Assembly (NCBI GenBank): GCA_028715705.1 | Contig: JAQURJ010000010.1 | Location: forward strand, 1-38,823 | Length of the DNA: 38,823 nucleotides | Origin: Phycisphaerae bacterium | Lineage (GTDB): Bacteria; Planctomycetota; Phycisphaerae; Sedimentisphaerales; Anaerobacaceae | Direction: 5' to 3' | Shown here: in pieces, positions 25,321 through 27,198 of the stretch | Layout of the letters: each line of letters begins with the position of its first letter | Position numbering within the stretch: the first letter of the stretch is position 1 | The notes under the pieces: generated by a model | Databases searched by the model: none | Told to the model about the DNA's origin: nothing | What the model saw: the letters and a program-made list of their open reading frames with translations, nothing else | Program-made: the position numbers and the translations under genes

Positions 25321-25773
25321 TCACTCGCTGTAAGAAAGTATTCTCTTTTTTTGGGATTGAAATTCATCCTCTGTGATAATACCTTTTTCCTTTAACTCCG
25401 CAAGCTTGGCTAAATCATCAAAATTTTTCTTAACAGACTCATCTTTATTCTGCGTGATACTTTTATCAGCATCGTATTGAGCAAGTCCTCGAGTTATTAA
25501 CTTTTTGTTATAGCGCCCAGCACAAAGAAAACCATCAATAACTGCCATAAACACCAAACTCCAATAAAATAAAAAAATCGGTAATCCAAGTATCGCCCCA
25601 CCAAGTGCTGCTACTAACAAACCTATAGCAACCAACATAACTAAAATGCCCAGGATAATTCTACCACAATACATATATCCTACGCCTGGAAGAAAAATGT
25701 TTAAGAGTGCTGCAATCCAACCCGATTTTTTCTTTGCTTCAATTTCTAACTTTACCCGCTCTAAATCTGGCAT
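25321..25773 (-). CDS. Membrane protein with SHOCT domain
   Basis: A 150-aa protein with two or three hydrophobic segments (about residues 18-80; FLPGVGYMYCGRIILGILVM recalls the TM2 domain) and a C-terminal SHOCT domain, DLAKLAELKEKGIITEDEFQ followed by SQKKRIL. SHOCT domains are short helical hairpins found at the ends of many membrane proteins and are thought to bind proteins or nucleic acid. A role cannot be assigned. It is the first gene of a minus-strand group that includes the H-X9-DG-like lipoprotein. Confidence 0.75.
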   Translation of the reverse strand: MPDLERVKLEIEAKKKSGWIAALLNIFLPGVGYMYCGRIILGILVMLVAIGLLVAALGGAILGLPIFLFYWSLVFMAVIDGFLCAGRYNKKLITRGLAQYDADKSITQNKDESVKKNFDDLAKLAELKEKGIITEDEFQSQKKRILSYSE

Positions 25774-25860
25774 ATTGTTCCCTTTCCAAAAAATTTGTTT
25801 CTTTCAAATTCCATTTATTGCTGGCGGCGTGCGCATAAAAAAGGAGCATCGCCGCAAATG

Positions 25861-25973
25861 CTCACTTGAAAATCGCCAGGTTATTTTGTGACGAACACCC
25901 GCCAACGATGCCCCAAGCGGGGCATCGAATTTGGGCACCTCGTCACAAAATAACCTGGCGATTTTCAAGTGAG
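25861..25973. repeat. 113-bp palindromic element, 34-bp perfect arms with a nested hairpin
   Basis: Positions 25861-25894 and 25940-25973 are exact inverted complements over 34 bp. Between them is a second hairpin with a 9-bp stem, CGATGCCCC (25906-25914) and GGGGCATCG (25919-25927), around AAGC. The flanks show no obvious target duplication. It is not next to a terminator position: the genes on both sides point away from it. It could be a small non-autonomous element, a structured regulatory site, or an inversion artefact of assembly. Confidence 0.85.
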
Positions 25974-26272
25974 ACGCCAAAAGTTCGATGAACTTTCAAT
26001 TAGTATTTAATTTTCAACCATATTTCCGCGATAATTTTCCTGCCAAATTTTCAAAAACAACATTTTGACTTAATAACTCCGACTATCAGGTTATACTTTG
26101 ACTTCATAAAGTCAAGAATTTTTAGAGCATTTTTTTAGCATATAGTAAAATTTGATGTCGGCAATGTTGAACATCAAACAAAAACTTGGGACTAACTACC
26201 CCAAATCGCTGCCGATGGGCTACCCAAACTCACTGTGATGGTAAAAGGCGAAAATTCGGACGATTTTGTATC

Positions 26273-26335: not shown

Positions 26336-26596
26336 ATGAACACTTTAATTCATGAACCTATAGCCGTCAAAGTCAGTTTTGACGAAGACAGTATGTGGGT
26401 TGCCCTTGCCGATGGCAGAAAGTTCGGTGTGCCGCTGGCATATTTCCCACGACTTCTTAATGCTACCGCTAAGCAGAGGAAACATTACACCATCAGCGGC
26501 GGCGGTACCGGACTTCACTGGGCCGACATTGACGAGGATATATGCGTCAAATCGCTCATGCTCGGCATAGGAGATAGAACAAAACTTGCGGGCTGA
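26336..26596 (+). CDS. DUF2442 domain protein
   Basis: An 86-aa protein that is almost all the DUF2442 domain: VKVSFDEDSMWVALADGRKF, the conserved VPLAYFPRLLNAT, then GTGLHWADIDEDICVKSLML. Function unknown; family members are often found beside toxin-antitoxin-like genes, sometimes with a partner DUF4160. Here the partner is different: a 69-aa protein 4 bp downstream and a nucleotidyltransferase. A TATAAT promoter lies 34 bp upstream. Confidence 0.88.
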   Translation: MNTLIHEPIAVKVSFDEDSMWVALADGRKFGVPLAYFPRLLNATAKQRKHYTISGGGTGLHWADIDEDICVKSLMLGIGDRTKLAG

Positions 26597-26600
26597 CTTT

Positions 26601-26810
26601 ATGAGCAAATTAGTACCCTTAAATAACGTAAATCGCAATATTGTCAGGCTGACCAATAAATCCGACGAGAATAATTTCGTCGATGCCTCGCCTGCCGAGC
26701 TTTTCTCCTTCGTATGGGAGCTAACAAAGGAAGTATATTCACTTAGCGGCAAAGATGTTGAACAAAGATTACAAAGAAATGTTACAAAGCTTATCCGAAA
26801 ACAAGGTTGA
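26601..26810 (+). CDS. Small protein upstream of and overlapping a nucleotidyltransferase
   Basis: A 69-aa basic protein. Its second half, LFSFVWELTKEVYSLSGKDV followed by EQRLQRNVTKLIRKQ, matches the short proteins (typically with W-x-LT-x-(D/E) and RLQRHV) that usually precede this kind of nucleotidyltransferase. It starts 4 bp after DUF2442 and its last 56 bp overlap the nucleotidyltransferase gene in another frame, so expression is likely coupled. Function unknown. Confidence 0.7.
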   Translation: MSKLVPLNNVNRNIVRLTNKSDENNFVDASPAELFSFVWELTKEVYSLSGKDVEQRLQRNVTKLIRKQG

Positions 26811-27198
26811 ATTTCTTGTTGTCGGAGCTTATGCGATGTCGGTTTTGGGCTATCCGCGGGCAACGGGCGATATTGATATATGGATATTTGCCTCTGCCGA
26901 AAATTCAGAAAAAGTTTTCAAATCTCTCAAGCAGTTCGGGTCGCCTTTAAGCGGAATTGACAGCCGCACTTTTTCAGAGGCCGATGTCATTTTTCAAATA
27001 GGCGTGGCGCCCAGAAGGATTGACATAATAACCCAAATTGACGGTGTCGATTTCAAAGAAGCCTATCGTAACCGCGAGGAAATCGTTATCGATGATATCC
27101 GGATTCCGGTTATTTCAAAGAAAGACCTTATAAAGAATAAACGATCCACAGGCAGGGCAAAAGACGCTCTCGACGTAAAAGAATTAGGGTCAGCATAA
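26755..27198 (+). CDS. Nucleotidyltransferase (MNT/AbiEii-like superfamily)
   Basis: A 147-aa protein with the pol-beta-type active site: EFLVVGAYAMSVLGYPRATG, then the metal-binding DIDIWI, and the third acidic strand RRIDIITQIDGV. Relatives add nucleotides to proteins or tRNA and often act as an antitoxin or toxin. The ATG at 26755 is kept, despite a 56-bp overlap with the preceding gene, because residues LNKDYKEMLQSL are part of the domain. No HEPN partner is nearby; the small upstream protein may be the partner. Confidence 0.82.
   Translation: MLNKDYKEMLQSLSENKVEFLVVGAYAMSVLGYPRATGDIDIWIFASAENSEKVFKSLKQFGSPLSGIDSRTFSEADVIFQIGVAPRRIDIITQIDGVDFKEAYRNREEIVIDDIRIPVISKKDLIKNKRSTGRAKDALDVKELGSA

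Follow-up and report, generated by a model that had tools for sequence, protein, structure and literature searches.

In the window, i.e. the whole 38,823-nt stretch of DNA analysed here, a 113-bp palindrome lies between two divergent genes. One side is occupied by a minus-strand gene (25321-25773) encoding a 150-aa membrane-type protein with a C-terminal SHOCT domain and preceded by a ribosome-binding-like site (AAAGGG) just 5' of it, the other by a plus-strand DUF2442 gene (26336-26596). The latter is followed by a DUF6036/DUF2204-type nucleotidyltransferase gene, both (26336-27198, plus) reading away from the palindrome. The SHOCT-domain protein had no strong full-length relative in the taxonomic family of the host, whose genus is represented by a single genome among those searched. 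The palindrome is real and sits exactly at 25861-25973, as originally described, with arms at 25861-25894 and 25940-25973 that are complementary in 34 of 34 nucleotides, a 45-nt spacer, and a 9-bp central hairpin (25906-25927; CGATGCCCC-AAGC-GGGGCATCG in plus-strand reading). Folded as RNA, it has a minimum free energy of -81.9 kcal/mol (z -18.5), and none of 200 shuffled sequences was as good. It is the only perfect stem of more than 12 bp (loop of at most 100 nt) in the window, the longest other one across 20 contigs (400 kb) of this genome measuring 23 bp and being unrelated in sequence, and a genome search, as had been proposed for the arms, found the exact sequence once in 2.33 Mb. The same genome holds an unrelated 74-bp palindrome with 23-bp arms (C19:4997-5070; L064 1501-1574) that looks like a small repeat or the end of an insertion sequence, and a copy of just its first 36 bases occurs at C6:35974-36009 (L065).

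Exact searches with the arms gave no match in IMG/VR and GTDB genome contigs, and DNA searches of plasmids, phages, and E. coli genomes recovered no relative of the palindrome. Short DNA matches within the host's family looked like chance after inspection by eye and folding, and a tip-plus-terminator pattern had 18 matches in viral contigs, none of them element-like on inspection and one located at a tRNA. An order-wide DNA search gave a single match, in another family, with 72% identity over the centre and a different outer stem. The covariance model built from the window copy and this match detected two further copies, one of them a divergent second copy in the window's own genome (C33:16904-17041; L138 4001-4138) with normal arms and compensated stems. 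A model in minus-strand sense that was extended to the terminator (R2) detected approximately 110 copies in at least 65 of 161 genomes of the host's order, Sedimentisphaerales, many with E <1e-10, and 100 fetched loci yielded 106 non-overlapping copies. A third model (R3), built from 89 copies, had matches in at least 78 of 397 genomes of the class Phycisphaerae and in at least 27 of 392 genomes of the phylum, other classes included; the genome counts of both models are lower bounds given the strict filters applied. Matches outside the class were weaker (E 1e-11 to 1e-3), yet displayed the same core motifs. Single genomes carry up to eight copies. At several loci (L142, L152, L174, L178, L225) copies occur in tandem, oriented alike and separated by a few hundred bases, the partner often being a longer subtype, and a variant of about 200 nt with extra sequence, compared to the usual 140 nt, occurs in G009 (C1, C2, C3), G050 (C84), and G044 (C185). 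Of 31 stretches recovered from GTDB with the terminator-loop pattern, nearly all came from assemblies carrying the label Sedimentisphaerales, Phycisphaerae, or Planctomycetota; the pattern was also present in contigs with an Odoribacter or candidate division WWE3 label (L242, L248), which are either chance matches or misbinned planctomycete contigs. None of the 4,227 families of Rfam 15 matched the window copy or 24 relatives (14 plus 10 distant members) at gathering score, and weak matches to eukaryotic microRNA families, far under the gathering scores, reflect the long hairpin only. The family is previously uncatalogued and absent from Rfam.

The alignments point to a conserved RNA structure. 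In an alignment of 88 distinct copies, pairing is seen in 97.1% of stem cells, 30 of 33 stem pairs have changed on both sides, and covariation scores 0.71, compared to 0.25 for shuffles and no more than 0.14 when partners were slid. This first alignment depended on the model, so 58 copies were also aligned by sequence alone with MAFFT, and RNAalifold predicted the same rod from them with 29 of 37 pairs compensated. The compensatory changes that were to be looked for in relatives are therefore present, and among the roles originally considered for the palindrome, that of a structured RNA was right. G-U pairs are frequent in the stems when read in the window-minus sense and would turn into A-C mismatches in the opposite reading, hence the RNA is assigned to the minus strand. 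The palindrome is thus one member of a predicted, minus-strand-read structured RNA family whose layout consists of covarying rod helices with conserved internal loops, a tip hairpin, and a terminator-like hairpin with a U-run.

In the window, the whole predicted RNA (5' leader, rod, and terminator) would extend from about 26021 to 25837 on the minus strand (alignment A8; R2 match at 25837-25973), its 5' end being approximate. All of its parts are given on this strand. The leader contains a putative switch strand, CATCGAA (25984-25990), able to pair with the apical 5' strand TTCGATG (CACTGA and TCAGTG in the family version), and next to the rod the motif GGCGT (25974-25978), the candidate second part of the leader complement. 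A hairpin at the 5' side of the window copy (AAGTTC..GAACTT) was rejected as a part of the element, as this helix is not kept in the family while the leader complement CACUGA is kept there. The rod 5' arm (AAAATCGCCAG plus loop; 25940-25973) is family-like, and the apical hairpin CGATGCCCC-GCTT-GGGGCATCG (25906-25927) has its 5' strand at 25927-25919 and its 3' strand at 25914-25906. The rod 3' arm (25861-25894) matches the reverse complement of the 5' arm exactly and is devoid of the motifs GGGCY and GCC that form the 3' loops in the family. The element ends in a terminator-like hairpin, GAGCAT-TTGCGGCG-ATGCTC followed by CTTTTTT (25837-25863), and this hairpin begins with the three bases that close the 3' arm. 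Its 3' strand CGATGCTCC (25843-25851) is complementary to the apical 3' strand GGGGCATCG, a pairing that would form the predicted antiterminator. The palindrome had been described as not placed like a terminator, whereas an intrinsic-terminator-like hairpin with U-run (25863-25837) ends the element. It had also been placed upstream of the DUF2442/nucleotidyltransferase cassette; the RNA and its terminator read toward the SHOCT-domain gene on the other strand, the predicted controlled gene, 64 nt away.

This arrangement recurs across the family. In 87 of 104 copies (p 1.7e-12) the next gene in RNA direction shares the strand of the element, the median distance being 72 nt, while the orientation of the neighbours upstream of the element is 50:50. 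Such same-strand genes just downstream together with a compensated, conserved structure are what is expected of a cis-regulatory leader RNA. For the remaining 17 of 104 copies the next gene was called on the opposite strand; gene calls were plain ORF heuristics and at least some of these cases are ORF-calling errors, since the second copy in the window's own genome was such a miscall and has a 517-aa N6 DNA methyltransferase-like gene 71 nt downstream on the same strand (L138 4209-5762, C33). A U-run is found at the end of 103 of 106 copies compared to 40 in a control stretch, so that, by sequence, the terminator hairpin and U-run of a transcription attenuator are in place, and TATAAT-like matches cluster 30-60 nt ahead of the model start. 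The downstream genes are functionally mixed. Their proteins often combine a signal peptide with a PEP-CTERM tail, and such tails are strongly enriched (23 of 66 downstream genes, as opposed to 10 of 430 among the remaining genes of these loci; odds ratio 22, p 6e-15). Pfam searches assigned PEP-CTERM to 15 of 69 downstream proteins and also found beta-helix, laminin-G, and dockerin domains, while a minority of downstream genes encodes DNA methyltransferases or other proteins known from phage defence. EcoRI-type or type I/II DNA methyltransferases and known phage-defence ATPases were seen downstream at L205, L163, and others in A9.

A putative promoter followed by a strong U-run might also characterize an independent small RNA that acts in trans and plays no part in control of the downstream gene, and the up to eight copies per genome and the copies without a called same-strand gene would suit it. 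We consider this improbable because close same-strand genes follow in 87 of 104 copies with one class strongly enriched, upstream genes are randomly oriented, and the conserved antiterminator pairing described below would be purposeless in a stand-alone RNA. Far less probable still is a small mobile repeat (MITE- or REP-like), as had been suggested originally, or a recombination site such as an integron attC. The element is palindromic and intergenic, and is scattered in several copies in some genomes, but its copies are divergent with compensated stems, the inner loops, leader, and terminator are conserved rather than the ends, and the orientation is fixed relative to the next gene. Several near-identical copies, as expected of a MITE or REP, were not found in the window's genome, which holds one exact copy and the divergent, compensated one on C33, and no target duplication was seen flanking the arms.

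A cis-acting leader is further supported by two conserved helices that are mutually exclusive with the rod and the terminator. The apical 3' strand and the terminator 3' strand are complementary in 99.0% of cells, with five of seven pairs compensated, compared to 87.9% paired cells in the terminator's own helix, and permuted partners matched as well as the own ones in 0 of 5000 permutations (A8) and 0 of 2000 among distant members. Thus, a conserved alternative helix excludes the terminator, as it does in attenuators. Likewise, the 5' leader pairs with the apical 5' strand (CACUGA with UCAGUG) in 95.9% of cells with six of six pairs compensated, compared to at most 45% in slid controls and 0 of 5000 permutations (106 copies). 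The continuation of this leader helix (GCGUU with AACGC) is kept at 89% of cells with weaker covariation, and the second leader part is accordingly less well supported as a leader complement than the first. Shared ancestry inflates both the permutation and the shuffle tests, a problem of which the slid controls are free, so that these controls and independent variants weigh most. The window copy has a matching variant, with CATCGAA in the leader (CACTGAA in others), TTCGATG at the tip (GTCAGTG in others), and CGATGC in the terminator.

These comparisons make a bistable terminator/antiterminator leader the best reading of the element. With the rod and the tip hairpin formed, the terminator would form as well and transcription would stop before the gene (off). 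Alternatively, the leader would pair with the 5' strand of the tip and release its 3' strand, which would then capture the 3' strand of the terminator and let transcription continue (on). In ViennaRNA the terminating fold exceeds the forced alternative in stability by 10.8 kcal/mol on average, so a switch would need co-transcriptional kinetics or a factor; a ligand, a protein, transcription speed, or chance are candidates for tipping the balance.

Within this family, the perfection of the arms sets the window copy apart. Its longest uninterrupted Watson-Crick stem measures 34 bp compared to at most 11 bp (mean 8.3) in 105 relatives, in which the conserved 3' loops GGGCY and GCC lie opposite 5' loops made of AA and a U-rich stretch. 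By likelihood, the 5' loop columns of the window copy rank 26 of 58 and are typical of the family, whereas its 3' loop columns score worst among the 58 copies (-58 bits compared to a mean of -7.2, sd 4.6, for the others). The 3' loop side is the exact complement of the 5' side and three bases longer than in relatives. The 3' arm thus seems to have been rewritten as a mirror of the 5' arm, and a derived arm that is the exact reverse complement of a normal arm keeping the ancestral state is the pattern expected of a template switch in a quasi-palindrome. Template switching has been proposed to create and maintain perfect RNA stems (PMC8794818). A replication template switch in an ancestral imperfect hairpin would have copied the 5' arm onto the 3' arm, yielding the 34-bp perfect palindrome and erasing two conserved internal loops. 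Selection for a stronger hairpin could in principle have fixed the same arms through point mutations, given that stem pairs are generally under selection, yet we deem this very unlikely, as it would need the loss of two conserved 3' loop motifs, a 3-base insertion, and many substitutions, with every change falling on the 3' side and making it perfectly complementary to the 5' side.

It is likewise unlikely that the perfect arms stem from an error of assembly or library preparation superimposed on a normal family member. The assembly comprises 186 contigs with 6.6% contamination and no other copy has perfect arms, but error fits poorly because both flanks continue as in relatives, while a fold-back chimera, raised originally as the refuting case, would mirror the flanks too. 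Here the leader lies on one side and the terminator, ribosome-binding site, and gene on the other, as in relatives, and k-mer merging would not explain the arms, given how far those of a normal copy diverge at the loops (AAAATAAC vs GGGCY). Of the original alternatives that such arms are recent, selected, or an artefact, the first thus suits their perfection, which looks recent and copy-specific, and the second suits the hairpin itself, apparently an old and selected RNA. The forced energies of the window copy (-93.0 in the terminating and -52.4 in the alternative fold) suggest that it can hardly leave the terminating state, and it is probably strongly biased to this fold. Taken together, a family of cis-acting RNA leaders of approximately 185 nt, operating by the proposed switch and altered in the window copy by template switching, appears likely to us from the sequence comparisons.

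The element resembles riboswitches, T-boxes, and attenuators in its 5' leader, structured domain, intrinsic terminator, exclusive conserved helices, and close same-strand gene. Unlike these, it has no assigned ligand, tRNA, or leader peptide, each strand of a single tip hairpin can pair elsewhere (with the leader and the terminator, respectively), and its predicted targets, exported proteins and some DNA methyltransferases, do not make up one metabolic pathway. No published description matching the family was found in the open-access literature searched, the sole lead being the Rhodopirellula-1 motif of Proteobacteria and Planctomycetes (Weinberg et al. 2010), listed as probable or possible cis-regulatory, a possible switch, and with a question mark as RNA (PMC2864571). 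Both are possible cis-regulatory switches in Planctomycetes that are absent from Rfam, and the motif, compared by description, could be identical to the family or distinct from it. Planctomycetes go unmentioned in the text of two recent genome-wide RNA surveys. PEP-CTERM genes are reported to be RpoN-dependent and controlled at the level of transcription (PMC9850573), a level of control shared with the element proposed here, and RNA leader control of PEP-CTERM genes was not found in the open-access literature searched. The template-switch RNA genes (PMC8794818) are similar to the window copy in that one event perfects an imperfect hairpin by copying arm from arm; the window case differs in being a bacterial leader RNA with a 34-bp arm and apparently erased functional loops, and in having more than 100 relatives that show the likely ancestral state.

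The window copy would thus represent an unusually clear template-switch rewrite of one arm of a conserved bacterial RNA, as more than 100 relatives show the state before it. The switch model would give exact and cheap predictions, namely strand swaps that abolish and then restore readthrough. To our knowledge, almost no regulatory RNAs have been described in Planctomycetota, to which an abundant, strongly covarying family of predicted RNA leaders would be added that is tied to exosortase substrates and some restriction and defence genes. In its widest form, a proposal for which we see about equal chances either way, the family would be an undescribed phylum-wide class of bistable leaders that turn surface genes (PEP-CTERM, dockerin, beta-helix) and DNA-modification or defence genes on and off by a double strand exchange, possibly in response to a new signal or as a stochastic switch, and the window copy would be a natural loss-of-switching mutant generated by template switching.
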